This document shows, piece after piece, positions 7,787 to 62,234 of a stretch of DNA of 64,000 bases. How positions within the stretch are numbered: position 1 is the first letter of the stretch; every line of letters begins with the position of its first letter. A model generated the notes under the pieces. It was not told the DNA's origin and searched no databases. It was given only the letters and a program-made list of their open reading frames with translations. Source of the stretch: a virus; the IMG/VR virus record IMGVR_UViG_3300048672_001051, positions 62,001-126,000 of that record, one strand, 5' to 3'. A program made the translations under genes and the position numbers.

Positions 7787-10700
7787 TTAGTGGCATTGAC
7801 CCCAATTAGAACCTACGTTCCATGCCATACCAAGCTCTAAAGAGAACTCGTTATATTTAACTGCACGGTCAATACCTTTTCTAATAATGTCAGGTAAAAT
7901 ATTGTTGAGTCCAACATAATACCTACCATCTTCAAGATGTCCAATTTCACTTGTAAGCGCGTTAGCTTTTACAAATTCTTTAGCATCTTCTTCTTTATCA
8001 AATAATTTAACTGTACACATGTTCCGAGGTACTGCGTACTGGTTTTCATCCAATTACATTACGAGTGTCGCAACACACTCTCCGCCTTTTCAGGTAACTT
8101 TTATAAGTTATTTTACGGGGTTAGACCATATCACGATGTTATATAGTAACATCCCTTCCGTTTCGAATCTACATTAGCTTTAGATTCTACTCTACTCCAT
8201 TCATTTTACAATGTGTTTCGATGGCCGTTGAACTTTTTTAAAAATTATAATTACAAGATATGTGTTTCCAAGTGCTTTTTTGCTTGAGTGCTCTAACTAA
8301 AGCATAGTTGTAGCCTAAGTCTCTTATATTAGCAGATGTATGGCCCGACTCGAGTAATTTGCAAATAGCGTGAACAGTATTTTCAGTTGTAATGCAATTA
8401 GCATTATTTGAACCAACTGCTGACCTATTATTCAGATCAAAAGAGTATTTAATATTATAACCATGAGTACACCATTCAAGATTACTTAACGCATTATTTC
8501 TACGATTAGCATCTTTGTGGTTAACTTCTGGTAAATTTTCAGGGTTTGGTATAAAAGCTTCTGCTAAAAGTCTGTGAATACTCTTGCATAATCTTTTACC
8601 GCCAACTCTTAAATTAAGTATTAAATAGCCTTTGCCATTATCTTGGGGTGTCAAAAGTTTTTTATGTTTATTAAAAACTTCACCATTTACAGTTATAAAA
8701 TAACTGTCATATATTTTTTTCATTTTTAAACTTAGCTGCTGATTGCCATATTATATTTATTGTAAATCTAATTACATATTAATTAGAAATTCAATTTTAC
8801 TATAACTTAGGTTTCCAGTCAATTAAAAAGGTTATTCGATATATATCACTATATAAAGCCACAATGAATTATGGTAAGCGATCATTTGATAAATTTTATA
8901 ATCTGATTTATTGTGAACTAAAGGGTTACCCAATAAATCTAACTCTTCTAATTCTTGACAAATCAGAACAGTTGATAATTTTGCCATAGCAGCGCCAGTG
9001 CCTTGAAATAAAAGATTCAATAAACTGTGCTTACTACGCGACATTAGTTTACGGCCATCTATACCAACAATATATTGTTGACCAGAGTCCATCCACTCTT
9101 GTTCTACTTTATCTTTAAGTTCTTTTAAAGCTGGAACAGATTCCCAAAAAAGATCGTATAGACGTTGAGCTTCTTCCGCCGAAATGCTTAGCATCTTCAT
9201 CAGTTTAGTTGCCTGAGCGCCATAAAGAACAGCGTAAGTAAAACTTTTAGCTGCATCTCTAGTAATGCCAAGTTTTCTGGCATTAATGCAATTACCAGAA
9301 ACAAATATCTTATCAGAACGTTTCACTACAACAAAACTTGAAGGTACTGTAACACAACCTACAAAACCATCATAGTCAACTTCTGAATAATAATTTTTGT
9401 TAACTGTAAGGTTAGACTTATTATTTGAAATATAGCACCGATAAATAGTGCAAATGCCTTTAACAGTAGACTTAACAAATTTATTAAAGTGACCTGCACG
9501 ATTTGTTAAATGGCATAAAGTTTGAATAGTTTTAGCTGTTTTAATTGATGTTGTATCTAACACAACATCACTATTTCTAGTAACAGTACCATCCCAAAAC
9601 TGAATCTCATCTAAAACTAAATTCATTTGGCGTGAACTTAATGTTAATAAATTATCTGTAAGCGATTTATCTAAACTTAAAAAATTACGAATTTTAACTG
9701 TGTCTTCTGAAGAATTTAAATAAAAATGATAACTAGTTTCTCTATCTTTTGGGTAAGTTGTAGTATGTGTATAAGTTATCCCAAGATTATCTAAAATATC
9801 TTTAAGCCTTTGAACTTTGCGTTCTTTACTAAAAGAGAACTTTATTCCAGAACAATCTTTAAGTAAATAAGCATCTGCTTGAACAGCTACAGCTAATTTT
9901 AAAAAGTTATCAGAATACTCTGAATTATCTTCTTGCGTGAGAATACCAGTGTTAGGTATGACTCTTGCAGAAGATCTTTTAGTAAAATTATTTGCAGTAG
10001 TTACAGACCAATTCGTGCTATTAGGTAATCTTGAAACTACACGATGTTCTGGAGTGACTAACTGATCTGTTCTAGCTGATTTTATATTTATCATCTTACC
10101 TGTATGTCGCCTCCAAATAACATTAGAAGGTTTCACAAAGGAGATTACACCATCTAGCCACTGTGCAACAAGACAATCTGTAGTGACTTGGTCGAAAGTT
10201 TTCCAACCAGTACTAGTTAATATTTGAGTATCTTCTGAAAAACAATGAATTGAATTAGGTTTTTCAGCCAATAAGTCACGAGCTAAATTTACACCATCTG
10301 TATAATTTAAGCAAAAGTTAGCTTGCACTCGAGCTTCAAGAGAAGCAAAGTCAAAAGCCATTTGCATAAAGCCGTCACCAGCTTTAAACTGACTTCTAAT
10401 AGCGTAGCCTTCAATAGAGGTTACGCGAGGGACATTACAACATAAGTGTTCCCTTGTCATCGCTAGTGACAAGGCGTTTAAAAAAAACTGCTTCATATTT
10501 CTATGAAGATCGGACTATATCTTTGGCATATTTTGGTATACCATAATCTGTTTCGGGTGTCAAAAGCTTACACCCTACGTTATAAAAACTAGTCTCTGAG
10601 CATTCTTCCTATCTTGTTTCTCAACAATATTTAGAAGCTTCGTGGCTGATTGTCCATTGTAATATCTTCTTTATTTTAAAACATTCACGCTTATCTTTTA

Positions 10701-12357
10701 AGATTACGTTGTAGTTAAAGAAGTTTTAGGAGTTTCCAGCAATTAAGATTATTTTAAGTGGGCTTGTAAAGTCAACACCACTGTGCTTATACCTACCGGT
10801 AGAAGCCCCGATAGTGTCAGCTGGAGTAGGCACACGGCCATCCTCCCGAACCATAGACAAATATCCAGTTAGCGGCTCGCCAGATTCATCTTCACTGCCA
10901 CCTGCAATGCTTGCACGTCTATGTTTATAAGTAAGATACTTATTAACAGCACCGACAAACTCTGCATCAGCTCCAATCTTTTCTAAGTTTGGACATATAA
11001 CCTTTTCAGTACCAACACGTAAGCATGGGCCTGTAGGCACTCGTAGAGGCTTGTTAGGGCTTTGACGGTACTTAGCCATCAAGTCATACTTTAAAGACTG
11101 TGGCTTCGATTTGAGCAGCGCTAGACGAGCCTCTCGGAAAGGACCATTAAGAGTACTCTCAACATACCTATCAATTACTTCTACAACTTTATTAGGATGT
11201 AATTTTTGTTTCTTAGCGTCTTTAGTAACATCACGCTCTTTCCACTCAAATGGATCCCAGCCTAAAGTAATTAGATAAGCTTTTAAATGGTCTAAATCTT
11301 TGATAGTTGCAGTTGTTGTTTCTTTAACACAACCTTCATAAGGAAGTTGATATTCTTTATCTTCGAAAATGTAAACATTTTCATCAGTAATAGTACCACC
11401 ATGCTTTTCTGCAAATTTTAACATTATTGCAGACACTGAACCATCAGCTTTAAATTGACGTTTAGGTAAAGTATAAACTTTCTGTTCACCTTTATTTAAA
11501 CGCTTGTCTGGAAGTATAGGATTTACAAATTCTTCAATATCATGAAGAACTTTATCAAACTTTACTAAACAATCTTTAGCCTTTTCAGTATCATATTCAA
11601 AACCAAATAACTCTTGTTTTAAAGTAATATCTGCAAGTTTAATTTCCATCGCGTAAGCTTTACCCCAAGCCCAGCCATCTTTTTCAGATTCAAGTATATT
11701 ATAAATATCTATGTTTACAAGCGTATCTTGTAAACAATACGTAACCATCTTATAAGAATAATTTTCAAATTCGTGGAAATCGCCTTTATAATTACCAATC
11801 TGTTTACCCCAAGCGCCTAAGCCATGCCCGAATATACGGTCAGGATTTAGTAGCTTAGACCAAAGTAAAGTATCAGTAAATACTATAGGAGTACCGAAAA
11901 CTTTAGAGACAGTTTTATATTTAGAACCACCAGTATCTGGATACCCAACTTCATATTCAATCATGTCAAATAATTGAAGAGTTGGCATGTCAAATTTAAT
12001 ACCATTATGAAAAATTAATTCTTCTGGTTCAAATTTTTTAAAAAACTTTTCAAGGTTTTGTTTAGTTAACACTACTTTTTTAATTGAATTATAAAGTATA
12101 CCATCTTGATCTGGAACTATACGTTCAGCTAGACAACTTTTAATCTCATCGAAATAAGATTCAATTTTTGTAATAGGTGCTTTATAACTCATAAATTCTT
12201 TTGGAATAAAAGCAAAAGAATTTCTAGTGTCAACACAAGTAACCATAACGACATGTAGCTTAGCAGTCGGTTTTAAAGTGTACGGCATTGTAGCATATGA
12301 TAACATATTAGCTAGTAAATTGTTAGACTCTATGTCTAAAACAACTTTTTTGAACAT
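7787..12357 (-). CDS. Family A DNA polymerase, three exons plus an intein
   Basis: Replicative polymerase of the T7 gp5 / Pol I family, join(12357-10775, 10440-8871, 8050-7787), 1138 codons, about 820 aa after removal of a 318-aa intein. Exon 1 carries the 3'-5' exonuclease (VLDIESNNLL, FHNGIKFDMPTLQ, YCLQDTLVNIDIY) and ends in the TGRYKHSGV motif. Exon 2 has motif A (FDFASLEARV), the intein, and the O-helix (RDAAKSFTYAVLYGA). The second intron splits motif C: exon 2 ends MIAYH and exon 3 begins DENQY, restoring HDE. The C-terminus GSNWGQCH matches the T7-type end. The ATG at 12357 has an AGGAAAG site upstream. Splicing is inferred from intron pairings and motif restoration. Confidence 0.92.
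8051..8870 (-). mobile_element. Group I intron in DNA polymerase motif C (with HNH ORF)
   Basis: An 820-nt intron between the His and Asp codons of the polymerase HDE motif. P1 pairs the exon end CCAT with GTGG in the intron; P10 pairs the next six bases of the guide (TTCATT) with exon start GATGAA, fixing both splice sites. Core elements are visible on the - strand: AATTGACTGGAAACC (8810-8824), a Q-like AATCAGCAGCTAAG, the P7 strands GGCCAT (in 8220-8233) and ATGGTC (8124-8132), and a P9 hairpin before the terminal G at 8051. The endonuclease gene sits in a core loop. Confidence 0.88.
8238..8723 (-). CDS. HNH homing endonuclease (intron-encoded)
   Basis: A 161-aa protein inside the second polymerase intron. 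An N-terminal NUMOD4-like stretch (YFITVNGEVFNKHKK) leads to an HNH core (HRLLAEAFIPNPENLPEVNH, then KDANRRNNALSNLEWCTHGYN) with the characteristic His, Asn and His residues. A small C-terminal helical, DNA-binding-like segment (TENTVHAICKLLESGHTSAN) follows. Such enzymes cut intronless alleles to spread their intron. The gene lies entirely in intron sequence and would be translated from unspliced transcript. Confidence 0.92.
   Translation of the reverse strand: MKKIYDSYFITVNGEVFNKHKKLLTPQDNGKGYLILNLRVGGKRLCKSIHRLLAEAFIPNPENLPEVNHKDANRRNNALSNLEWCTHGYNIKYSFDLNNRSAVGSNNANCITTENTVHAICKLLESGHTSANIRDLGYNYALVRALKQKSTWKHISCNYNF
9291..10244 (-). mobile_element. Intein in DNA polymerase (318 aa)
   Basis: The insertion lies between motif A and the O-helix. 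The N-terminal junction is NSIH|CFSEDTQILTSTGW and the C-terminal junction is KIFVSGN|CINARKLG, giving Cys1, a terminal Asn and Cys+1. Block B-like TPEHRV and block F-like YDGFVGCVTVPSSF are present; the penultimate residue is Gly, not His, as in some phage inteins. The centre holds weak LAGLIDADG-type segments (LAVAVQADAYLL and EIQFWDGTVT), suggesting a decaying homing domain. Removal restores the polymerase sequence SIHCINARKLG. Confidence 0.93.
10441..10774 (-). mobile_element. ORF-less group I intron in DNA polymerase
   Basis: A 334-nt intron splitting the TGRYKHSGV/NVPRV region. P1 joins exon AGTGG(T)GT to the guide GCCCACT with one bulged U; P10 pairs exon 2 TTGTAA with TTACAA just before the guide, fixing the 3' site after the G at 10441. 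Core: AATTGCTGGAAACTCC (10729-10744), P7 strands GACTA (within 10589-10601) and TAGTC (within 10512-10523), P9 hairpin at 10452-10474. No endonuclease gene. Part of it is nearly identical to the second intron of the JAMM gene. Confidence 0.88.
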
Positions 12358-12411
12358 CAATCTTTCCTCATAGTTGTTAATTTTTCCAGAAACAACTTAG
12401 ATAATTTATTT

Positions 12412-36305: not shown

Positions 36306-37358
36306 TTAGATATCCAACAAGTTATATTTTTTTAAAAGTGTAATTACATCAAGACGATCATTATCCCATCGACGCATAAAAGCTACATCAACATACATTT
36401 GCAGTAAGTCGACCCAAGTGCCTTCTACGCGCTGGTCCCGCCAATCTAGCCACCATTGAAGATCACCATACCACAACTTATAAAGTGTGACTATAACAGA
36501 CCAACACTCTTTATCGGTGGCGCAGTCTTTAAAAAGGTTAAAAAACCTTAACGGTGAAATGCTTGGGCTACCACTAAGATTAGATCTACCTGCACATTTT
36601 TTTAACAAGTCTAGTGGGTTATAATCATCAACAGGGTCACCCATGACAATTTGATAATAAAGCCATTTTCGGCCTTCACCGTATACAGAGTAAGTTTTCT
36701 TATTAGCTGCACTAATCTTAACATCTAGCCTTAAAAACCCTAATCCAGAAATGTCTAAGATAGTTTCTGTTAGTGGATGATAAACTTTTCCAGCAGTTCC
36801 GCGAGAATCTTTATCAACTGTTGACGCTAGGTACTGGCTGCCATCAGGATGTTTTAAAGACCCTAGATATTGGTATTTTGAAACAATATCATCAGCTTCT
36901 TCATTATCTGAAACGACACAATTTTTAGTAGCTAATAACCACTCACGAAGAGCAGACAACAGCAAAGGTCTTTGTACGTCATCTCGAGACGCCTTATATT
37001 TTACAGGTAGCGATATTTCAGTTCTGAAATTTGTAGGTCCACCTAAAGCTATTACATAATCCGTAGAGGAGGTAAGCTTAAGTATTTTTTTCAATCGAGC
37101 ATTAACAGAAAATTGGCACTTAGTTAAAGACTCGCAAAAATCCTCTTTAAGTCTTTTGCAGTCTTTAATTTCATAAAATTGGCGGACTGTTTTAAAGTCC
37201 GCTCCAATTTCATTTTTTAGCTGAGTAATTCCAGAATATTCTATAATATTTGTAGGGTCTGTTTTTAAAGCTGCCTCTATATACAACTCTTCAGCTGTAC
37301 AAGCTATACTGTAAATTAGCCAGTCACCATCAATACAAATAGTTTTTTTTAATTTCAA
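36306..37358 (-). CDS. 5'-3' exonuclease / flap endonuclease
   Basis: A 350-aa FEN/RNase H-family nuclease. The N-terminal metal site CIDGDWLIYSIAC, the helical-arch residues YKASRDDVQRP, the central acidic site VSDNEEADDIVSKYQ and STVDKDSRG give the clustered Asp/Glu ligands. A helix-hairpin-helix-like region follows (MGDPVDDYNPLDLLKKC). It resembles T7 gp6 and T5 D15-type exonucleases that remove RNA primers. The start is TTG 37358, overlapping the RecA stop as TTGA. Confidence 0.88.
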   Translation of the reverse strand: MKLKKTICIDGDWLIYSIACTAEELYIEAALKTDPTNIIEYSGITQLKNEIGADFKTVRQFYEIKDCKRLKEDFCESLTKCQFSVNARLKKILKLTSSTDYVIALGGPTNFRTEISLPVKYKASRDDVQRPLLLSALREWLLATKNCVVSDNEEADDIVSKYQYLGSLKHPDGSQYLASTVDKDSRGTAGKVYHPLTETILDISGLGFLRLDVKISAANKKTYSVYGEGRKWLYYQIVMGDPVDDYNPLDLLKKCAGRSNLSGSPSISPLRFFNLFKDCATDKECWSVIVTLYKLWYGDLQWWLDWRDQRVEGTWVDLLQMYVDVAFMRRWDNDRLDVITLLKKYNLLDI

Positions 37359-38398
37359 GAATACCCATCCTCGTCGATAGGTGCTACAGCTTCCACTTCA
37401 ACTGCACCTAAAATTTTCGATTTAATTTGAAGTGCCGATGCGTCTTTAAATTTATTAAAAATTTCTGGATCATTATTAAATAAGTTAACTACAGCTTGTT
37501 TACCTTGAAGTTTAAAAGAGTCAAAAGAATACCAAGCGCCGCCTTTATTTATTAAGCCTTGTTGAACACAAATATCTACAAGCTCACTAACAAAATCAAA
37601 ACCTTGACCAAATATTAATTTAGTAGTTACAGTTTGATAAGGAGTGCCTACTTTATTTTTAATAAATTTCAGTTCAATATCTTGACCAATAATTTCTTTA
37701 CTAATAGGATCTGCAATAAGTTCACGTTTTGCAACACGAATGCGTATAGACGCTACAAAAGGTAATGAATTACCACCTTTAGTTTTTTCACCACCACCAT
37801 AAGAACCAATATTGGAATAAATTTGGTTTAGAAAAACACAAACTGTTTGTGTTTGAGCGGCAGCATTTTTTATTTTATTCATGCCTAGAGACATGATCTT
37901 TGCAAGAGATCCCATGGTATTTTCATCCATGCCTTTCTCAATTTGAGCTTGAGTTAAAGAAGCTCCGACTGAGTCGTAGATTATTAAAGAACAACCACCA
38001 CTCAAAGCTAGCATTTCAACAATTTCTAAGCCCTCTTCAGCTGATTGAGGTTGAGCAAATATAAACTTATCTTCGCTCAAATCTAAACCAAAAAGTTTAG
38101 CATACGCTGGAGAAAATGCTTGTTCAATATCTACAAAAGCCACAGCTTTATTAGGATACTTCTTTTGTGCCTGTACGGCGAGCGCTGTAGACATAGAAGT
38201 CTTACCGCTACTAGGAGGGCCATAAATCTCTACGATGCGTCCTAGCGGTATACCGCCAATGCCTGTAGCATTATCTACGATCATAGACCCAAAAGGGATA
38301 ACTTCATAATCGCGCGGTACTGCAGAAACAAAAGCTTCTGCACCCCACTTTTTCTTAATCATATTTTTTGCATTTTCTAAAGCTTTATTACTAGCCAT
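37355..38398 (-). CDS. recA: RecA-like recombinase
   Basis: Strand-exchange ATPase, 347 aa. Walker A GPPSSGKTS at residues 60-68, VAFVDIEQAF (catalytic Glu), Walker B SLIIYDSVGAS, the L1/L2 DNA-binding loop region (LNQIYSNIGSYGGGEKTKGG) and IRIRVAKREL are all typical of bacterial-type RecA rather than T4 UvsX. The LexA-like C-terminal domain is short. It acts with the gp46/47 nuclease, RecQ and the RuvC-like resolvase in recombination-dependent replication. The ATG at 38398 is the only good start. Confidence 0.95.
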   Translation of the reverse strand: MASNKALENAKNMIKKKWGAEAFVSAVPRDYEVIPFGSMIVDNATGIGGIPLGRIVEIYGPPSSGKTSMSTALAVQAQKKYPNKAVAFVDIEQAFSPAYAKLFGLDLSEDKFIFAQPQSAEEGLEIVEMLALSGGCSLIIYDSVGASLTQAQIEKGMDENTMGSLAKIMSLGMNKIKNAAAQTQTVCVFLNQIYSNIGSYGGGEKTKGGNSLPFVASIRIRVAKRELIADPISKEIIGQDIELKFIKNKVGTPYQTVTTKLIFGQGFDFVSELVDICVQQGLINKGGAWYSFDSFKLQGKQAVVNLFNNDPEIFNKFKDASALQIKSKILGAVEVEAVAPIDEDGYS

Positions 38399-38932: not shown

Positions 38933-39227
38933 TTATTTTTTTTAAATTCCTTATCACATTAGATTTATGAAGTAACAAATGAGCTGTATTAATAACTTGA
39001 TAGCTAACTAAATTTTCAAGTCCATCATACTTTTGAAAAAATTCATTATAATCAGATTTATCTATAATATTTATATCTACAAAATTAAAAAGTTTATCAA
39101 TACTTTGAAACTTTTCCACATTATCAAATAATAAATTTGATATAAATAAAAGTTTTGTTTCTTCGTCAAGATTTAAAGCATTAAAATTTTCTATAAAATT
39201 GTTATATTTTAAGATTGTGTCGGACAC
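38925..39227 (-). CDS. Hypothetical helical protein (100 aa)
   Basis: GTG start at 39227, inside the end of the RuvC-like gene. Acidic, Asn/Phe/Leu-rich helical protein (EETKLLFISNLLFDNVEKFQ). No family recognised. It appears coupled to the downstream 171-aa gene by an 8-base overlap. Confidence 0.65.
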   Translation of the reverse strand: MSDTILKYNNFIENFNALNLDEETKLLFISNLLFDNVEKFQSIDKLFNFVDINIIDKSDYNEFFQKYDGLENLVSYQVINTAHLLLHKSNVIRNLKKIND

Positions 39228-39775
39228 AAAGGTTTCCTAACAGGAGGTTTTTTAATCTTTTTCTGCGGCAATAGCGCAGGATTTTGTAATATTTTTATAT
39301 AAGCATAGCCTACAGCTACAGCATCTGACTCATCAAAATTGTTTAAAACTTTACCAGTTAAAAATGGTAACAGCTCAACAGCTTGACGTACAACTTCTTT
39401 TTTAGAATTACCATTACCTGCAACAACTTTTTTAACAGTCTTAGGTGCTAAAGTAACTATAGGTACATTTTTAAGCACAAAATAGTTTTTTAATAAACCA
39501 TTTAATTCTGCGAGTTGAGTAACAGCAGTTCCATTAAAAGCATAATTTTCAAAAACCACACAATCAAATTGAATATCGTTAAACTGTTCAAATTGTTCAA
39601 TAAGTTTTGAAAACATTCTAGCTGTTTTAGAAAAAACAATATCTGATTTTCTTGGACTAGATTTTACTGAAAAAACATTGTGGCAAATTACGGGGGTTTC
39701 AACTTCAGGATTATATTCAAAGTAAGCTATACCAGTACAACTAGTAGAACCATCTACACTTAAAAATTTAATCAT
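39209..39775 (-). CDS. RuvC-like Holliday junction resolvase
   Basis: An RNase H-fold nuclease, 188 aa. The acidic catalytic residues can be placed: Asp in LSVDGSTSCTGIAYF, Glu in DCVVFENYAFNG, and the C-terminal Asp pair in NNFDESDAVAVGYAY. The TLAPKTVKKVVAGNGNSKKE loop matches RuvC. It resolves branched DNA before packaging. It is encoded in the recombination block two genes upstream of recA. A basic Pro-rich tail (KKIKKPPVRKPLCPTQS) extends beyond the core. Confidence 0.93.
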   Translation of the reverse strand: MIKFLSVDGSTSCTGIAYFEYNPEVETPVICHNVFSVKSSPRKSDIVFSKTARMFSKLIEQFEQFNDIQFDCVVFENYAFNGTAVTQLAELNGLLKNYFVLKNVPIVTLAPKTVKKVVAGNGNSKKEVVRQAVELLPFLTGKVLNNFDESDAVAVGYAYIKILQNPALLPQKKIKKPPVRKPLCPTQS

Positions 39776-40294: not shown

Positions 40295-42688
40295 TTAAAC
40301 ACATGAAGTATAATTAGCAACACTATTAAGAACTTGATAATGTTGCAATGCTTTTGTTGTAGTACCGGTAGAGCCGTAACGAGCAACATACGCTTGAGCT
40401 GCTGAAACATCTTCACCAGCTAAATGAGTGCGAATGATCTCTTGAACAGTCCGGTAATCATCAAGTGTACGAGAGGCTGACATATTTGAACCACTAATAA
40501 AAGTAACTTTTTTATGTGTGACAATTTCAGTCAAAACACATTGAAATAAGTTAGCTAGTAGTGACGCAGCAATATCATTGCCACTGAACATTTGCTCAGG
40601 ATTATCGTCAGTACCTCGAGCGTCTACCTCAGCACAGGATTCTATTTGAACTTCTTCAAAGTCGCTAAAAATATCTGCATGATCAATTGTATAATAATCA
40701 CGACCTAAACGGTTGTAATAAACTTGACCATTAAATAAATTAACGCCAGCAGAAAAATAGTAATTATTCCAGTTAAATGCTTCAGAATTAGCTGAGATAT
40801 ACAAATCTAATGCTTTTTTAAAACCTTCATTATCGACTAAATTCATAACATGACTTGTATTATCAATACCAATATCTTTGATATCAATAAATAAATCAAG
40901 ATCGCGATTTAGGTCAGCAGGATTTTCATAAGCAAATTCATCGTAGTCTGAATAGTAGCCAAACTTCGGCAAGTACGAAACAGTGATATTTTGATATAAA
41001 CCGTTGTAACGGTTTGACAAAACTTCAGCTTTGTTTAAGCCAATATCTGCTGAAATAAAGTTCTGCCGAAGCAAATTCTTTTGTTCCCATTTGTTACAAT
41101 TTGAAACTTAGATATTTATTATATTTTCTATCTAAAAAAATAGAAGAATCTTTGTACAATAAATCTAAGAATGTATTTACATTTTGCTTACCAGAAAGCG
41201 TTAAAGCATAACAGCAATTTTCAGTATTAAATCTTTTATATAATTTAGTATTAAATTTAATTGAACAATCAGCCTCAATTAAACTTTTAACTTCATTTAA
41301 AAAAGATTTAGTTCCAGCAATAGATGCACAGTAGCGCGTATAGCCATCCTTACATAAAGATTTAGACATACTGCCATCACCATCAAAGTAACCCCTAATA
41401 AAATGAATAAAAAATTCTTTTGGGATATTTGGAAACTTAAAATCTGTTGTTTTATTTCTGGTAAAACCAAGACTGCGTAATTTGCTAATCATGTGTAAGT
41501 TTGAAAAAGACAGCGAACAAACATTTGTTATTTTGCCAGTAAAGGTACATAACTGTGTAAATGTTTTAATTTTAACGTCACTTTTTAAACAAATTTTAAT
41601 TTTTTCTAAGATTTCAATATCTTTTGAGTTTAATGCAATTTTAAGCTCATAGTCACCGACGTAACCGTCAGCAGCAATAAATCCTAAAATGTAAGCTTTT
41701 TCCTCAGTATTTATGATATCAAAAAAATTATAATCTGCTTTAATAGTATTAAGCCAATCAACTGGCCTTTTAAAATTGTGTCTCTTAGCTAGTGCGTTTA
41801 CATTGACTAGGCTGCAGTTATATTTTATAGCTAACTCTGAAGTTGTCAGACCTTTATCATAATCTTTTAATAAATTTATTACGTCATTTTTAACATGAAA
41901 TAAACCTGCTTTGAATAAACGCCTTTCAGCAGTTTTTTCAGAACAATTTAAAATACGCATAACGTCATTTTTATCAATAAGATTTTTAAAAGAAAGACTT
42001 TTTAAAAGAGTTAACTCTTTAATAATAACATCTTGTTTAATTGGTAAGTACATTATTTTGACTCCTATAATTGTACAATGTGGCGAGACCACTATTGAGA
42101 AAAACAATCATATCAGACAAAATTTCAAACGTCAACCTCCTTTCTGTTCGGGGTTGAACTTTGGCTTGATATTATCTTTAAATAATACCTAGTGTATAAT
42201 ATGCCAAAGAGCAGACTATCGCATAAACTAATGTAATCCCTACATTAGTTTCTCTTTCGCTTAGTCGTTCACGGTGCCTTGAGTTTTAATAGATTTTTAA
42301 ATCTATCTCATGCTTCCGCCTTGTTGTCCTTATACTAGGAGTTCCAAGTCAATTAGAAAGAGTTTTATATCGTCCAACATTAAACGATATCGCCATCAAC
42401 AAGAATAATTTCAACTTTAAAGTTGTGACTACGTTTATGCAAAAGATCATTATAGATCTTTAACAGTTTTGGAAGAATCCAACTTGTAGTACCACCAGCG
42501 CCAAAAATAAATAACTTCTGATCTAAGTACTCCCGTGGAAGCTCTTTTGCATTTTTTAACAGACGAAGAAAAGCAAATTTATCTAACGCATCAATAGCTG
42601 AAATTTTTTCAGGTTGTACTGGACGATATTTAAGTGCACGAATCCACTGCGCCAGTGTGATTTGTTTTAAAATAGGTTCTACTTTCAT
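40295..42688 (-). CDS. E1/ThiF-like adenylyltransferase (PRTRC ThiF type), two exons
   Basis: Adenylates and activates the C-terminus of a ubiquitin-like protein. Spliced gene join(42688-42383, 41086-40295), 365 aa. Residues 61-67 (IFGAGGTT) form the ATP loop; VDGDIV at 97-102 binds ribose; exon 2 starts EQKNLLRQNF, restoring the E1 hallmark of Asp-x-Asp...Asn-Leu-x-Arg-Gln, then DIGLNKAEVLSNRY. ESCAEVDARGTDDN precedes SGNDIAASLLANLF, as in PRTRC ThiF proteins. The JAMM and E2-like genes lie immediately upstream. The catalytic Cys, if any, is not certain. Without splicing, exon 1 would stop one codon into the intron. Confidence 0.9.
41094..42053 (-). CDS. LAGLIDADG homing endonuclease in E1 intron
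   Basis: A 319-aa protein starting at ATG 42053, with an AGGAG site 8 bases upstream; a longer in-frame start is not needed. An N-terminal helix-turn-helix-like region (NDVMRILNCSEKTAERRLF and TSELAIKYNCSLVNVNALAK) precedes two LAGLIDADG motifs: AYILGFIAADGYVGD and FIRGYFDGDGSMSK, each with its catalytic Asp. Intact motifs suggest an active enzyme. The frame ends 7 bases before the 3' splice site. Confidence 0.93.
   Translation of the reverse strand: MYLPIKQDVIIKELTLLKSLSFKNLIDKNDVMRILNCSEKTAERRLFKAGLFHVKNDVINLLKDYDKGLTTSELAIKYNCSLVNVNALAKRHNFKRPVDWLNTIKADYNFFDIINTEEKAYILGFIAADGYVGDYELKIALNSKDIEILEKIKICLKSDVKIKTFTQLCTFTGKITNVCSLSFSNLHMISKLRSLGFTRNKTTDFKFPNIPKEFFIHFIRGYFDGDGSMSKSLCKDGYTRYCASIAGTKSFLNEVKSLIEADCSIKFNTKLYKRFNTENCCYALTLSGKQNVNTFLDLLYKDSSIFLDRKYNKYLSFKL
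42108..42136 (-). promoter_or_regulatory. Sigma70-like promoter inside E1 intron
   Basis: TTGACG (42131-42136) and TATGAT (42108-42113) are separated by exactly 17 bases, about 60 bases upstream of the endonuclease ATG. It is the best consensus-like promoter I noticed in the window and would express the homing enzyme independently of E1 transcription. Confidence 0.7.
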
Positions 42689-42731
42689 ATTAAATCTTAT
42701 TTATTTAAATTGAATAAAAGCAACACTGAAA

Positions 42732-45700
42732 TCAGTGTTGCGTGACTAAAGCGTTGTGATAGCTGTCTATCAAGAATTTCGCCTCTTCGGCAGGATCCAT
42801 ACTGTCATACGGTACGTCATCATCAACTACAATAATGCTAGAATTTTCTGCATCAGGCGCAGAAAAAATGTCTTGCTCAGAACCGACAGCCAGAAGACCT
42901 TGATTGAAAAAGTGACTTAATTCATTCAATTGATCTTCTGTAAAAGCTGTTTGATAGCCAACAATATCTAACAAAGTTGTAAACAAGTCTACAATTTCGT
43001 CCATGTTTAGTGGTACAGAAGTTTTAGCGTAATAAGGCGTAGGCAACAAACGTCCCAACAACTTCTCAAACTCTTGCAGTAACCGGTGCTGTTGAGTATC
43101 AATAGCCCAAAGAGTTAAATAGACACTTAACGGCTGATATCTTGGATAAACCGGTGGAACATATGGTTTACCTTTACCAGCAGGTGGTGTATAACCAAGA
43201 GCACCAACTGACTTATTGTACGAAGCAATTTCAACAATTTTATCTTCAGAGCCAGCAGGTACACTGTAATCAGAATCTTCTTGAAGTTTTTCAATATCGC
43301 GATCAAAAATATCGTTAACTTTCAAAACAACTTGTTGTTGATTTGAAGCAGCACGAACAACAATTTCAGGGACTTCATTACTAAGCTTACCAATAACGCC
43401 AAACAAACGAGAAGCCTTCTCGTCGTTTAAATCACCACCACTGAAGAATGCCATAATATTCAATACAGATCGTTAATCTGTACCCGCACCTATTAAAGAT
43501 GCTGCTTATACTTTCATATAAGAGTAGACTATATCTTCTTTCAGTTTAAACTGAAAGCTCTCCATTTCCACCCACTTGGGTGTACGATACTCGATTCATT
43601 CAAAAAGAATGTCTTTCTCTAGTCGTTGAACTTTTACCGTAGAATAAATTCTTTAGGTACTTAGCTGCTGATTATCCAATTCTATTAATTTTCAAACATT
43701 CACACTTATCTTTTCAGATTATGTTGTAGTTTAATAGACTCTTATGAATTAATAATACAATCTAATACATATTTTTCTGTAATTAATTTTTTATAAATAA
43801 TTCTAACTAATTTAATATTATTATCTAAACAATATTGATTTTTAATCTCATCACATTCTTTTGAATATTCTGAGTACCATATATGATTTTCATCATAATG
43901 TTGTAACCCATCCGCTTCAATCATAAGATTTTTAGAGGGGATATAAAAATCAATCCTTAAAGGGTATCCTTTAGGAGATAATAATTTTTCATTAGTATAT
44001 TCACAAATAATATTATTATAATTAGCACTTAATGCATTATAAATATTATTTTCAAAGTTAGAATTACTTTTAAAAAATCCTAGCATATTATTTAAATTAC
44101 ACATTGAAATTTTTAATTTAGTTAAAGTTTTATTAGATCTTTTAATAGTGTTAATAATTTCACTATTAGTACAATATCTATTCTTACTTAAAATAAATTC
44201 TAAAATTTCTTTTTCTACTACCTCTTTAGTTAATTCTTCAGAGGATCTTCGAGCTTTTGCTGCACAAGATTTTGAGCAAAATATGGTATTAAGTGTATAC
44301 TTAGTGCCATACTGCATATTAGTGTATAAATTTAAATATTCTTTATTACAGAATTTACATATTTTTTTATTACTTTTCATATCCTATTTCCAATTATATT
44401 TTAATTTCTGCTATTAAAAAGCATTAATATAATTATAATTGAAAGACTTATCAAAGTCGAGGAAAGGAACTTCCAGCAATTAGAAGAGTTTTACATGAGC
44501 ACATTTAAGCTTTACTCATATCTACATGCGACATTGTAGATGTGTTATGAATTGTTTTTTAATATACAATTCCTTGACAAGAATTTCTTTGTAATATAAA
44601 CTTTACGTCATTACACCATGACTATATAAGTCAAAATTTTACGACATAAAGCAGGTACATTAAAATTTGTTAAAACTAGAAAAATACAAAGACTATATTA
44701 TAACAAATATAGCGCAAAACAAACCAATTAGCATAATAGCTAAAGAGTTAAATGAATACCCTCAAGCAGTTAGAAACGTAATAAAAAAATACTTACCTGA
44801 TAAAAAATTTATACATGATCAGGGAAATATTTCTTATTTTAATAAAATAGACTGTGATGCTAAAGCATACTTTATAGGCTTCATTGCTGCAGATGGATCA
44901 CTAGTAAAACGTAAAAGTGATAATAGCATAGCATTAAGTATAACTATCAATAAAAAAGATAAATTAATACTAGATACTTTAAAAAATTGTATAGGTTGTG
45001 AAAATCCTGTAAGTTTTTTAAAATTAAATGATTTAGTAAGGTTTGTTATACAAAACAAACAAATATCAGATGATCTACAAACTTACGGAATTGAGCCTAA
45101 CAAATCTTTAACTATGCCGTCAATTATTCATAAAATACCGAAAGAATACAGAAAAGCATTCTTAAGAGGTTATTTTGATGGCGATGGTAGTGTATTCAAA
45201 AGTTCTAAAAACAAATATTATGTAACTATAAGAGGCACGTTAGAATTTTTACAAGCATACATAGAAGAGTTTAATTTAAGTTCGTATTCGTTAAAAAAAT
45301 ACGATTACGAAAAAATTGGGAAATTAACAACAGGGTCTAAAGACTCTATTAAAAAATTTATAACTATGTATGAAAATTCTGAAATACACTTACAAAGAAA
45401 ACATGAAATATTTTTAAATTTCATGGAAAAACATTGTCAAGATCAGACTATCTCATCACCCTAGTTTAACTAGGGTGTGCGGCACTCGTGTCGGTCTTAT
45501 TGGACTAGATCCTCAACCGTTAGTCGTTACACCCAACTGACTACTTTTACTCTATTCGTCAGTCTTGGCACGGTATTGTCCTTTTTCTAGGAGTTTCACC
45601 GTTAGCATTAACTATATTAGTTAACACACCCTTTTCAGGTTCACCGCATTATTCAATTAGCATTACTGCTAAAGGCCACTCGCTTTTAATGGATATCCAT

Positions 45701-46111
45701 AACGATGAAAAAGTTTGAATTGTTAAGCATCGCAGGATCATTTTGAAAATTAACTGTAGCCCCACCAACACGTTGTTCAGGCACATACAGAAAATAGTCT
45801 TGCTTTGCAATATCCCAATAAATTGAGATATACACTTCTGATCGCATCTTATTTTTAATAACGCGGAAAAATTCAACGATATTAGTAAGAAGTGCGACGG
45901 GAATTTTCGGAAGTGCAGAAACGTAGCTAACTTCACAAGTTTGATTAAGACCTAAACGCTTTAGGTCAATCTTATCAATTTGAATAGTAAAAGTGCCTAC
46001 AGGCTCTTTACGACGTTGCCAAATACCATTAGCAAAAGCAGCGTTTGAGAACTTTTTAGTTTCATCAAAACATTCTACTGTAAAGCCATTTAAATCAGGA
46101 AACATACTCAT
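42732..46111 (-). CDS. JAMM/JAB isopeptidase (PRTRC protein A type), three exons
   Basis: Zinc protease expected to remove or process a ubiquitin-like protein. Proposed join(46111-45689, 44531-44514, 43460-42732), 389 aa. Exon 1 ends YFLYVPEQRVGGATV ... FFIVMDIH, giving the catalytic Glu region and the first zinc His. The mini-exon begins TCG CAT (Ser-His), the second His. Exon 3 starts NIMAFFSGGDLNDEK, supplying Ser and Asp, then LFGVIGKLSNEVPEIVVRA, typical of PRTRC A. The pairing-based mini-exon (SHVDMS) makes the His-to-Ser spacing ten, not the usual seven, so its 3' edge is uncertain. Confidence 0.85.
43461..44513 (-). mobile_element. Second group I intron in the JAMM gene
   Basis: About 1053 nt. 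Proposed P1 pairs exon ATATGAGT with guide GCTCATGT (8 bp with two U-G pairs); the guide-to-P3 spacing matches the E1 intron. Core: AATTGCTGGAAGTTCC (44466-44481), AATCAGCAGCTAAG, P7 strands GACTA (within 43619-43631) and TAGTC (within 43527-43537). A P9 hairpin (TACAGAT/ATCTGTA) precedes the terminal G at 43461. A Vsr-like endonuclease gene sits between the P3/P4 region and the Q/P7 elements. No convincing P10 was found. Confidence 0.82.
43742..44380 (-). CDS. Vsr-like (EDxHD) homing endonuclease in JAMM intron 2
   Basis: A 212-aa protein. An N-terminal zinc finger (KICKFCNKEYL ... TIFCSKSCAAKA) is followed by a helical linker and a Vsr-like nuclease core: LRIDFYIPSKNLMIEADG, LQHYDENHIW, then CLDNNIKLVRIIY. 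The core is that of the free-standing enzyme at 13.8-15.5 kb. ATG at 44380 with AGGAT just upstream. It should cut intronless alleles of the JAMM gene. Confidence 0.85.
   Translation of the reverse strand: MKSNKKICKFCNKEYLNLYTNMQYGTKYTLNTIFCSKSCAAKARRSSEELTKEVVEKEILEFILSKNRYCTNSEIINTIKRSNKTLTKLKISMCNLNNMLGFFKSNSNFENNIYNALSANYNNIICEYTNEKLLSPKGYPLRIDFYIPSKNLMIEADGLQHYDENHIWYSEYSKECDEIKNQYCLDNNIKLVRIIYKKLITEKYVLDCIINS
44532..45688 (-). mobile_element. First group I intron in the JAMM gene, with an antisense ORF
   Basis: About 1157 nt. P1 joins exon CCAT to GTGG; P10 joins the preceding GCGA to TCGC at the start of the mini-exon, fixing both splice sites. Core on the - strand: AACGGTGAAACTCC (45590-45603), P7 strands GACTA (within 45517-45530) and TAGTC (within 45440-45453). 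An 8-bp stem, CTTGACAA (45433-45440, - strand) with TTGTCAAG (44573-44580), brackets the endonuclease gene, which runs on the + strand. A GAATTGT/ACAATTC hairpin precedes the 3' end. Confidence 0.85.
44667..45464 (+). CDS. LAGLIDADG homing endonuclease, antisense to its intron
   Basis: A 265-aa protein on the + strand, the only real + gene beyond 3.3 kb. Two LAGLIDADG motifs: AYFIGFIAADGSLVK and FLRGYFDGDGSVFK, both with the catalytic Asp, and the downstream beta-rich repeats. An N-terminal HTH-like stretch (NKPISIIAKELNEYPQAV) precedes them. The start is probably TTG 44667 with AGCAGG upstream, and TTGACA at 44574 may be a -35 element. The last codons overlap the complement of the intron's P7 strand, tying the ORF's end to the ribozyme core. 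Confidence 0.9.
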   Translation: MLKLEKYKDYIITNIAQNKPISIIAKELNEYPQAVRNVIKKYLPDKKFIHDQGNISYFNKIDCDAKAYFIGFIAADGSLVKRKSDNSIALSITINKKDKLILDTLKNCIGCENPVSFLKLNDLVRFVIQNKQISDDLQTYGIEPNKSLTMPSIIHKIPKEYRKAFLRGYFDGDGSVFKSSKNKYYVTIRGTLEFLQAYIEEFNLSSYSLKKYDYEKIGKLTTGSKDSIKKFITMYENSEIHLQRKHEIFLNFMEKHCQDQTISSP

Positions 46112-46959
46112 TGGAAAAATCTACCTACACGGGTTAGTTCATTACGAGTTATATTACGTAAAAAATTTTGGGATGGGCTTGGCAATACATTGTATTGATA
46201 ATACATGTAAATATAAGACATTTCATTTAATCGCAAATGAGCTTCATTTGTAAAAAAGTCTGGTCTGAAAACAGTTTGAAGAAAATCTTTAAATCCAGGC
46301 GTAGAATTTACTAGATCTCTACCTACAGCCACGTTAGGATCTAAATCTGTATTAAACAAACTGCTTAAGTACAAACGTACAAAACCTGCTTGGTCTGCTG
46401 GTGAAGTAGAATTCAAAACAGCTTGTGCTGTGTCTGCAATGTCATGAGGCCAACAAATTTTATCACTGTAGTGATTATTAAATACACTTTTATGATATTT
46501 TGTTTCGTCTGTAACATTTAAACTCAAGCCTGTCATTTCAGCAAAACAGACATTATAACTAATAAAATTTCGAGAAGCATTATTGTTTGAAATAATAAAA
46601 CCTAAAATATTTTTAAATTTAAATGCTGGAAAGTTTAATGCATGACGATTACCAACACTGTGCACTTTAAAGTGATCGTTTGGTATTAGATACTGACTAA
46701 TCGTATCAACTGAGTTACCAGCAAAATTCAAAGCTACAGTCAATTCTGGATAGTGAAACAAACGTTTAATTCGTGATTCTAAAATGACTTCACGAATTAA
46801 GTTTGTACCAATATATCCAGAGTCTTTACGAGAAACTTTCTGTGCACCAAAAAAGTCAACAATATCTGTATAAGGAATTTGTTTTGTAATTTGACGGCCT
46901 TGCTCTTCAGTGGTAACTGCAACATGAGTAGCTTGTGGAATATATTTAAAAGTAATCAT
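46108..46959 (-). CDS. E2-like protein (PRTRC protein B type)
   Basis: A 283-aa protein immediately upstream of the JAMM gene (ATGA overlap). The segment KYHKSVFNNHYSDKICWPHD places a Cys (Cys169) after an N-x-x-x-x-x-(hydrophobic) turn, as in the prokaryotic E2-like proteins annotated as PRTRC system protein B; HALNFPAFKFKNILGFII fits the preceding core strands. In this scheme it would accept the activated ubiquitin-like protein from E1 as a thioester. The match is by motif and gene order, so the enzymatic role is inferred. Confidence 0.7.
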   Translation of the reverse strand: MITFKYIPQATHVAVTTEEQGRQITKQIPYTDIVDFFGAQKVSRKDSGYIGTNLIREVILESRIKRLFHYPELTVALNFAGNSVDTISQYLIPNDHFKVHSVGNRHALNFPAFKFKNILGFIISNNNASRNFISYNVCFAEMTGLSLNVTDETKYHKSVFNNHYSDKICWPHDIADTAQAVLNSTSPADQAGFVRLYLSSLFNTDLDPNVAVGRDLVNSTPGFKDFLQTVFRPDFFTNEAHLRLNEMSYIYMYYQYNVLPSPSQNFLRNITRNELTRVGRFFQ

Positions 46960-47288
46960 AAGTATTGTGAACTCTGAAGTGGGGCGCTAAGCGAAGCTTT
47001 AAAAAATGTCTTAAATTCTAAAAAGTAACTTAAAGGAATAACGACACGATCAGTTTCTGCATCTAATGCCTGCAGAAACTGCGTAAGATTTTGATTACTA
47101 GGTTGAAATGCAGAAAAATGCGAATAAGCCGCAGCTTTATCTGCCCGACATCTGCGAAAAAAATCAACTAAATTTTGAAAATTAGTATCAACAACGCCAG
47201 CAGAATTTACAAAATTTTGTAAATTATCATAAAAAATATTGAGCGGTGTAGGTTCGTTATTAGATTGTAATTGGTCTTGGATATTCAT
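46956..47288 (-). CDS. Hypothetical protein in ubiquitin-like cassette (110 aa)
   Basis: ATG at 47288 (MNIQDQLQSNNEP), inside the end of the upstream gene; a start at 47318 is possible. Helical with a Cys-Arg-rich centre (LVDFFRRCRADKAAAYSHFS). It lies between the E2-like gene and the upstream unknown gene with overlaps on both sides, so it should be co-expressed with the cassette. No family recognised. Confidence 0.65.
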   Translation of the reverse strand: MNIQDQLQSNNEPTPLNIFYDNLQNFVNSAGVVDTNFQNLVDFFRRCRADKAAAYSHFSAFQPSNQNLTQFLQALDAETDRVVIPLSYFLEFKTFFKASLSAPLQSSQYL

Positions 47289-47820
47289 AGACGTAATATT
47301 TCTCAGAGTTAGGTACAACAGTCAAGGGGACTATAGTCAACCGCGGACCATCTGTAACGTTGCCAGTATTTGCTACTTTAAAATAGCTACCAGCAGAATC
47401 TTTTATGGCAATTCTTTGGCTCATAAATACAGCTAAGAAGTCTTCAGTCTTTGTATGAATAGCAAATTCAAGATAAAGGCTAGGACATAACTGATCGGGA
47501 GTTACGTTAAAAGTGCTACACAAACCATTTTCAAAAGATTTGTAACGTTCTAAAGGGTACAAAAGCAATTGATTTAATAAAGTTGCTTCTAGAGTTTCAT
47601 TTAAGCTAAATACGAAGTTTTTAAAACTAGTACCTAATTGTAAATAATACTCAGGTTTTACTAAAGGTTCTACAGTTGATTTATTATGAATTATAGATAA
47701 ATATTTTTCATAATTAATATGTTCAACTACAGTTTTAACCCACTCTACAAATTTCTGTTTTTTTATATTATCTAAATTTTGACAATATCTATAAAGAATA
47801 TAACCTTTTAATTCGTACAT
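47260..47820 (-). CDS. Unknown cassette protein, possible PRTRC protein F counterpart
   Basis: A 186-aa protein from ATG 47820; an upstream GTG lies inside the terminator hairpin and is unlikely. Helical N-half (FVEWVKTVVEHINYEKYLSI) and a C-half with NQLLLYPLERYKSFENGLCS and SLYLEFAIHTKTEDFLAVFM. In bacterial PRTRC cassettes a protein F gene occupies this slot between C and B, but sequence similarity is not evident to me. It is the first gene after the terminator that follows the ubiquitin-like gene. Confidence 0.6.
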   Translation of the reverse strand: MYELKGYILYRYCQNLDNIKKQKFVEWVKTVVEHINYEKYLSIIHNKSTVEPLVKPEYYLQLGTSFKNFVFSLNETLEATLLNQLLLYPLERYKSFENGLCSTFNVTPDQLCPSLYLEFAIHTKTEDFLAVFMSQRIAIKDSAGSYFKVANTGNVTDGPRLTIVPLTVVPNSEKYYVYEYPRPITI

Positions 47821-47840
47821 AATAATTTCTTTGGCAGTAT

Positions 47841-47872
47841 AAAAAGGTTGAGGTTGCACTCGTGCAACCTCA
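47841..47872 (-). terminator. Strong terminator after the ubiquitin-like gene
   Basis: An 11-bp stem (TGAGGTTGCAC with GTGCAACCTCA) with a 2-nt centre is followed by ACCTTTTTAT on the - strand, 24 bases past the ubiquitin-like stop codon. It would allow the small modifier to be made in excess over the conjugating enzymes encoded downstream. Confidence 0.85.
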
Positions 47873-47895
47873 CTAGCTAAGCTTTCGCCAGCTTA

Positions 47896-48108
47896 TTACG
47901 CAGCGTTTTTAGTGCCGGTAGGGATGGTAAATGTTAGAACATTTACACCGTTAACAACGTTAACAACAGGTGTAGCATTACGCAATTCTGCGTAAGTGCC
48001 CGACAATTCAGTCTTAATTTGTTCTGGGGTGTAACCAGTAACAGTAGAGTTGATGCCGCCAGCTGGGTATTGAACTTGGTAAACAGTTTGAGTGAACATA
48101 GTAGTCAT
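47896..48108 (-). CDS. Ubiquitin-like small modifier (PRTRC protein C type)
   Basis: A 70-aa protein. The order strand-strand-helix-strand is visible: VYQVQYPAGGINSTV, then GYTPEQIKTELSGTYAELRN (helix ending Tyr-x-Glu-Leu), then GVNVLTFTIPTGTKNAA. PRTRC protein C proteins share the Tyr-Pro-Glu-Leu helix end and the closing Gly-Thr-Lys. They are small beta-grasp, ubiquitin-like proteins. The tail GTKNAA lacks a terminal Gly-Gly; if conjugation occurs, trimming by the JAMM protein or another route is needed. E1, E2-like and JAMM genes follow on the same strand. Confidence 0.75.
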   Translation of the reverse strand: MTTMFTQTVYQVQYPAGGINSTVTGYTPEQIKTELSGTYAELRNATPVVNVVNGVNVLTFTIPTGTKNAA

Positions 48109-61949: not shown

Positions 61950-62234
61950 TTAAAGTTGCTCATCTTCATCCAAATATTCTACAACAACATCGGTCGACCA
62001 AGGTTTAGCTGAAAACATATAATTAACTCTATCAATAAAGTGATAACCGTTAAGTATAATTAAAGATCCGCCAGTATCAACAAGAGTCCAAATTAAAGAA
62101 TCATGATTTTTTGAAATAAACTCAAGATCTTTGCCATATGTTTCAAAAAGACCGGCCTCATTTCCAGATTCTGTGGGGCCTAAATAGGGTGAATATTGTT
62201 CAACCCACTCATCATAAGTTAAATTTGTAGACAT
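61950..62234 (-). CDS. Hypothetical protein (94 aa)
   Basis: ATG at 62234, 16-base overlap with the sirtuin fragment frame. The C-half [20 protein letters not shown] followed by [13 protein letters not shown] resembles a short phage protein family with the pattern D-G-x-I-x-G-x-H-x-(V/I)-(N/D)-R; I cannot name it. An 85-bp gap with a probable promoter or leader separates it from the DUF808 gene. Confidence 0.7.

Follow-up and report, generated by a model that had tools for sequence, protein, structure and literature searches.

A probable ubiquitin-like conjugation operon of the PRTRC lineage in a jumbo phage, with introns in its catalytic motifs

The stretch of viral DNA analysed here (hereafter the window; 64 kb, positions 62,001 to 126,000 of IMG/VR record IMGVR_UViG_3300048672_001051) belongs to a 229,656-bp record of a jumbo phage which also carries a large terminase gene. 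Between positions 40,295 and 48,108 it harbours a cassette whose genes all lie on the minus strand and which comprises, in the order of transcription, the gene of a ubiquitin-like protein (UBL), a terminator-like hairpin, two fast-evolving genes and the genes of an E2-like protein, a JAMM isopeptidase and an E1 enzyme. Judging from gene content, gene order and catalytic residues, we consider it highly probable that this locus is a complete phage-borne operon for ubiquitin-like conjugation of the lineage known from bacterial PRTRC operons and from "row 6d" of Iyer and co-workers, enabling reversible tagging. A preliminary description, made from the sequence alone, had pointed out a 70-aa UBL ending in GTKNAA, an E2-like protein with a candidate Cys169, a JAMM protein and an E1/ThiF enzyme encoded in one direction, and had assigned them to the PRTRC type. 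All four are indeed present, and that description was right while understating its case; it did not spell out the introns and the 18-nt micro-exon reported below. The bacterial PRTRC/6d kind of system is known, whereas a phage-borne conjugation core of this kind lacking ParB is new.

Intron-split JAMM and E1 genes

Direct family searches with the unspliced open frames were too weak to identify the JAMM, the E2-like protein and the UBL; the unspliced fragments of JAMM match PRTRC_A with an E-value of 0.12 and those of E1 match PRTRC_ThiF with 7e-4. For JAMM and E1 this was solved by splicing. Joining three exons yields a JAMM protein of 386 aa which matches PRTRC_A (TIGR03735) with 4.9e-13 and 49 bits (curated cut-off 101.8), and joining two exons yields an E1 of 365 aa which matches PRTRC_ThiF (TIGR03736) with 1e-12 and 48 bits (curated cut-off 144.75), so that both scores lie below their cut-offs. 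The match of the spliced E1 to Pfam ThiF (3.3e-9) is above the cut-off. PRTRC-type identity is thus direct for these two proteins, while for E2 and UBL it is obtained via the wider phage family; the profile comparison proposed in the preliminary description gives matches for PRTRC A, B, C and ThiF, those for B and C through relatives.

Three introns could be placed to the base. Two interrupt JAMM and one interrupts E1, and they cut the catalytic motifs of both enzymes. U is the last base of every 5' exon and G that of every intron, the P1 helix including the terminal U.G pair (exon end:intron, CCAU:GUGG and AUAUGAGU:GCUCAUGU in JAMM, AUAUCGUU:GACGAUAU in E1), and P10 pairs with the start of the 3' exon (UCGC:GCGA and GCAUU:AAUGU in JAMM, AACA:UGUU in E1). 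Splicing restores HSHVDMSAFFSGGD in JAMM via the micro-exon, the junctions DIH/SHVDMS/AFFSGGD generating the motif HxHx7SxxD, and IVEQKNLLRQNF in E1 with the junction DGDIV/EQKNLLRQNF. Both JAMM introns score just under the Rfam gathering score for group I. The E1 intron gives no match in Rfam, and its putative assignment to group I therefore rests on the P1 and P10 pairings. Independent evidence for the splice sites comes from covarying pairs in two related phages: in Acinetobacter phage vB_AbaM_ME3 the JAMM gene is interrupted at the same first site with a compensating P10 (UCACA:UGUGA) and a 36-nt micro-exon, and in the phage locus numbered L003 a compensating P1 (GCAU:GUGC) is found at this site. 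The residues SHVDMS of the window's micro-exon correspond to SHVNMS... in ME3 and to SHNVMS... in L003. The site of the second JAMM intron of ME3 differs from that of the window. Within the 14-residue JAMM motif each of the three phages has two group I intron sites, the first common to all and the second different in each. Two tRNA genes lie in the JAMM intron region of ME3 (L001 11268-11462) and five in the E1 intron of L003 (L003 9326-9855).

The catalytic residues are strongly conserved. In E1, Asn106, Arg109, Gln110, Lys121 and Cys253, and with them the nucleotide-binding residues, are invariant in 68 aligned sequences, one fragment apart. Of 64 distinct frames, 57 hold the complete JAMM motif, and all three resolved split genes (window, ME3, L003) have it once spliced. 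JAMM is also split over two frames in L074, L077 and L078, and in L040 and L082 the motif is missing in the frame used. When the phage E1 profile is compared with solved structures, a bacterial ThiF-type protein (PDB 9egb, 9egc, 9egd) scores best (3.9e-10).

The ubiquitin-like protein and the E2-like protein

For UBL and E2 we used profile hidden Markov models (HMMs) which were "clade-free", i.e. built from other viral and bacterial sequences only, with the window, ME3 and L003 left out. Each of them has a sole match among the 689 open frames of the window, namely the 70-aa UBL (2e-7) and the 283-aa E2-like protein (9.6e-9), respectively, a result far outside what chance would give. Aligned with hhalign, the UBL profile matches that of PRTRC C with an E-value of 7e-9 (minimum in 100 column-shuffled controls 0.019), and a chain of two alignments links the window's E2 to PRTRC B (3e-5, then 1e-10). 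The E2 proteins of L048 and L079 match the PRTRC B model TIGR03737 at 6e-21 and 8e-24, and 32 of 45 phage E2 relatives match Prok-E2_D (PF14460), the best with 2.6e-29. Single-sequence E2 scans of the viral contigs gave nothing new, and a tblastn search for the UBL in phages gave no match.

Cys169 of the window's E2 is situated in the stretch FNNHYSDKICW. Together with Asn162 and Asn203 it is invariant in 45 sequences, whose consensus PFPNxYxxGxxCxG we take to be the counterpart of the eukaryotic E2 motif HPN...C; further downstream the phage proteins hold the invariant Asn203 within FNxDL. In the UBL, Gly65 and Lys67 are invariant in the aligned relatives, most of which terminate in GTKG or GNKG. 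The preliminary description had expected a beta-grasp fold for the 70-aa protein. An AlphaFold 2 model indeed shows a beta-beta-alpha-beta-beta, beta-grasp-like arrangement (pLDDT 77, pTM 0.55), yet a significant Foldseek match was not obtained. The corresponding model of E2 (pLDDT 74.7) comprises a helix, strands, the cysteine and further helices in an order compatible with UBC; its Foldseek search gave no meaningful match.

The hairpin behind the UBL gene had been taken to suggest an excess of modifier, which is a reasonable inference. Its position is conserved in other phages: among 44 distinct viral cassettes, 32 have a terminator directly after the UBL gene, versus 16 of 85 control positions. 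A UBL gene with such a terminator of its own would be expected to supply tag in excess over the enzymes. Some phages encode UBLs in tandem: Bacillus phage KLEB27-3 has four units, which match Prok_Ub with 5e-27 (above the Pfam cut-off), Vibrio phage D69 has three, and L057 and L086-L089 have five or six. Tandem UBL genes beside a JAMM gene constitute a phage parallel to polyubiquitin. Two further UBL-related sequences were noticed. The 66-aa UBL of Salmonella phage Arash (L006 107-307, plus strand), which ends in GTKG, is missing from the annotation, the record placing gp251c there in another frame. In a Paenibacillus plasmid protein (L011 5545-6978) a JAMM domain is preceded, within the same chain, by a UBL-like stretch which ends in GGKKG.

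Tandem genes bear on the question of whether UBL and E1 might instead form a sulfur carrier system, in which a thiocarboxylate would be generated for biosynthesis or tRNA thiolation as by ThiS/ThiF or MoaD/MoeB. E1 does match the ThiF of thiazole biosynthesis (4.3e-6); its match to PRTRC_ThiF given above, however, is far better. Moreover, ThiS and MoaD pathways employ neither an E2 with conserved Asn and Cys nor an adjoining JAMM, a gene of sulfur metabolism was not seen next to the cassette, and both the tandem arrays and the UBLs ending in GTKG fit conjugation. We thus regard a sulfur carrier function as very improbable.

Recurrence in other phages

A scan of IMG/VR with a seven-row E1 alignment revealed 80 viral loci. 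According to HMMs of the four components, 58 of these contain the full set and 75 contain E1, E2 and JAMM, nearly always in the same order. The 58 complete loci fall into 30 E1 clusters at 50% identity, and terminase (PF03237) was detected in 24 of 37 records tested. Annotated carriers are Acinetobacter phage ME3, Salmonella phage Arash, Vibrio phage D69 and Bacillus phage KLEB27-3; in D148 and D181, E1 and JAMM were found. In a tree built from E1 sequences the window falls into a clade with L003, ME3 and L017 (support 99/96). Many deep branches contain phage E1s, a distribution to be read with the caveat that the query came mostly from phages and the sampling is hence not neutral. L019, L039 and L041 from IMG/VR as well as MT835919 branch together with Clostridia, and they could be bacterial rather than viral elements.

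Single genes of the cassette had been visible before, as the records of ME3 and KLEB27-3 name PRTRC_A or ThiF proteins. In the open-access papers searched, a scope which leaves out subscription papers and preprints, we came across none describing a phage with a PRTRC-type cassette or with a complete set of genes for ubiquitin-like conjugation. A jumbo-phage survey of 2021 mentions ME3 without the cassette, and a jumbo-phage review of 2026 does not mention ubiquitin.

The large terminase subunit gene (TerL) lies within 10 kb of the cassette and divergent from it in 17 of 23 contigs (including L043, L042 and L020) where about 3 were expected, and in Arash the cassette is placed between TerL and structural genes. 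Most TerL-adjacent cassettes, however, belong to one E1 clade, elsewhere the flanks comprise DNA ligase and helicase genes, and the window's phage lacks the linkage. We therefore did not adopt a role in morphogenesis, for which terminase adjacency is a hint only.

Conservation of the active sites over 30 E1 clusters suggests that the cassette pays during infection, and it also bears on a possible role in counter-defence. According to this alternative the JAMM protein would strip tags attached by host systems such as Bil or CBASS Cap2/Cap3, while the phage's own UBL, E1 and E2 would act as decoys or blockers. Host systems which tag phage proteins do exist, the cGAS of CBASS having been found conjugated to two T4 proteins (PMC10097602), and the phage JAMM is intact once spliced. 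Yet the catalytic residues of E1, E2 and UBL, needless for a decoy or for de-conjugation alone, are kept over all these clusters, and PADLOC returned only partial E1-domain matches with no defence-family gene found beside the cassette. Such a counter-defence role hence appears unlikely.

Proposed function

Reversible UBL conjugation during infection is the most likely function of the cassette. After the three introns have been spliced out, functional JAMM and E1 would be produced. E1 would then adenylate the 70-aa UBL at its C-terminus, holding it as a thioester on Cys253, from where E2 would accept it on Cys169, with Asn162, at the place of the Asn in HPN, aiding transfer to amines of the target. 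JAMM, with a predicted zinc site formed by Glu92, His141, His143 and Asp154, would take the UBL off again; where UBL genes are tandem, it would probably also cut the precursor into monomers. In this manner the phage may reversibly tag its own proteins, those of the host or both in the course of lytic infection. As to the targets, we lean slightly towards proteins of the phage itself that serve replication or packaging or belong to the virion; host proteins seem somewhat less probable and defence-related proteins a minor possibility. A wider proposal is that reversible UBL tagging constitutes a widespread, so far undescribed part of lytic-phage biology in which large phages would place an excess tag, sometimes made as a polymeric precursor, on host proteins or on proteins of their own that act in packaging or replication or form the virion, and in which the ME3 clade would make the active sites for conjugation and de-conjugation only after splicing; to this we assign about even chances. 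ME3, Arash, KLEB27-3 and D69 exist as isolates, which makes it possible to test directly what is tagged and how the phage's fitness is affected.

Several observations weigh against the assignment to a conjugation system. Searched directly against protein families, UBL and E2 of the window give at best weak matches: the UBL alone matches PRTRC C with an E-value of only 0.054, and a direct search with E2 gave no match to PRTRC B. Foldseek matches of the UBL model all have E-values above 0.001, even though the best ones include ubiquitin-like domains, and the E2 model, lacking a useful structural match, was not used as support. Homologues of E1, JAMM and E2 were detected by mass spectrometry of purified Arash particles (PMC10585845), from which we conclude that these proteins are expressed. 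The list, however, spans 116 of the 252 phage proteins, many of them enzymes, so that co-purification is possible and association with the particle unproven; we therefore rejected reading them as virion proteins. The numbering of this list is apparently one off versus GenBank after gp239, with E1, JAMM and E2 covered either way. Finally, nearly all UBL relatives end in GxKG, whereas the window (GTKNAA), ME3 (GNKAA) and L003 (GQKNG) do not.

This lack of the canonical terminal Gly, together with three introns in two genes and a Pro171 in the window's E2 where relatives have Gly, might indicate a former conjugation system now decaying in the window's phage. In CBASS, though, a C-terminal Gly and Ala are both usable for conjugation (PMC10097602), and GTKNAA accordingly does not exclude function. 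Gly65 and Lys67 of the UBL have remained invariant, the spliced frames are full with every catalytic residue present in three diverged phages, and the pairings in P1 and P10 have been preserved with covariation. Degeneration is in our view quite improbable, and we retain a working, reversible conjugation system as the preferred interpretation.

Layout of the locus

The features of the cassette are compiled in Table 1.

Table 1. Features of the cassette, listed in the order of transcription (coordinates refer to the window).
Feature	Position	Strand	Basis
UBL (PRTRC C-like), 70 aa	47896..48108	-	clade-free UBL HMM and PRTRC C profile match
Intrinsic-terminator-like hairpin directly 3' of the UBL gene	47849..47872	-	10-bp stem and T run
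Protein 1, PRTRC F place	47260..47820	-	position only
Protein 2, between F place and E2, up to 120 aa	46956..47318	-	position only
E2-like protein (PRTRC B / Prok-E2_D lineage), 283 aa, N162 and C169	46108..46959	-	clade-free E2 HMM
JAMM isopeptidase (PRTRC A), exon 1, ends ...VMDIH	45689..46111	-	PRTRC_A match of spliced product; P1
JAMM group I intron 1	44532..45688	-	Rfam RF00028 1.8e-10; P10 UCGC:GCGA
Antisense LAGLIDADG gene inside JAMM intron 1	44667-45464	+	LAGLIDADG_3 3e-14
JAMM micro-exon, 18 nt, encodes SHVDMS	44514..44531	-	P1 and P10 of both flanking introns
JAMM group I intron 2	43452..44513	-	Rfam RF00028 7.9e-9; P1 AUAUGAGU:GCUCAUGU
Endonuclease-like open reading frame in JAMM intron 2	43742-44380	-	DUF5889-like candidate, 2.7e-4, below cut-off
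JAMM exon 3, starts AFFSGGD, long C-terminal extension	42732..43451	-	splicing and PRTRC_A match
E1/ThiF-like, exon 1 (GAGGTTS ... DGDIV)	42383..42688	-	PRTRC_ThiF and Pfam ThiF, spliced; P1
E1 intron (putative group I)	41087..42382	-	P1/P10 pairing and frame restoration
LAGLIDADG-like open reading frame in E1 intron	41094-42107	-	by inspection
E1 exon 2 (EQKNLLRQNF ... Cys253 in ESCAEVD)	40295..41086	-	invariant residues

Protein 1 comprises 186 aa if translated from the ATG at 47820 (range 186-199 aa), a GTG at 47859 falling inside the terminator. It evolves fast and gave no family match in profile searches. A small second gene between the F place and E2 is usual in the relatives, and both genes evolve too fast for comparison across clades. 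In the 6d operons of Iyer and co-workers the extra protein likewise diverges rapidly (PMC1779556). Models of PRTRC E and F found no match in 21 records, the control genomes giving no match either, and PHROGs holds no family for the window's cassette proteins. The cassette is closely followed on its downstream side by a gene of a RuvC-like resolvase (39209-39775, minus strand; PHROG 159, 1.1e-29) and, by inspection, a RecA-like gene (37355-38398, minus strand). A further group I intron of the window (10491-10837, minus strand; Rfam 1.5e-13) is situated between the open reading frames 8832-10496 and 10726-12360.

Comparison with known systems

The annotated PRTRC operon of Cupriavidus taiwanensis (NZ_LT984809, L012; TIGR03734-03742) has the order ParB-E-C-(hyp)-F-B-A-ThiF. 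The phage cassette retains C, the F place, B, A and ThiF in the same order and direction, which bears out the resemblance proposed in the preliminary description, and its JAMM and E1 match the same models. It differs in the long C-terminal extension of JAMM, the introns, the UBL end GTKNAA, JAMM and E1 scores under the curated cut-offs, its lytic-phage carrier and the lack of ParB. The absence of a ParB gene, noted for this locus before, extends to the window's whole record and to 36 other records, in none of which TIGR03734 found a match. We therefore file the cassette as a relative of the PRTRC conjugation core and not as a PRTRC system.

With Iyer 6d (PMC1779556) the phage cassette shares a UBL, a JAB protein with an N-terminal domain, an E1, a separate E2 with conserved Cys and a diverging extra protein. 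The 6d operons were described in bacteria only, whereas the present cassette is phage-borne. A C-terminal Gly on the UBL is among the features which define 6d, but the window's clade does not conserve it, and in place of the downstream His of 6d E2s the phage E2s carry the FNxDL motif. A close annotated counterpart is found in Acinetobacter phage vB_AbaM_ME3 (gp322-gp326, gp130, gp131), which has the same cassette in the same order with an identical first JAMM intron site, but an unsplit E1 gene and tRNA genes in an intron. In its record the only named products of the cassette are "PRTRC system protein A" and "ThiF"; the remaining genes are entered as hypothetical.

The logic of E1, E2 and JAB is common to the phage cassette, to CBASS Cap2/Cap3 and to Bil. 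Type II CBASS, however, combines a fused E2-E1 with a CD-NTase, whereas the cassette has separate E1 and E2 genes, a dedicated UBL and a phage as its carrier. In the literature searched, bacterial ubiquitin-like conjugation appears mainly as anti-phage defence; here it is lytic phages which own the tag, E1, E2 and de-conjugase.

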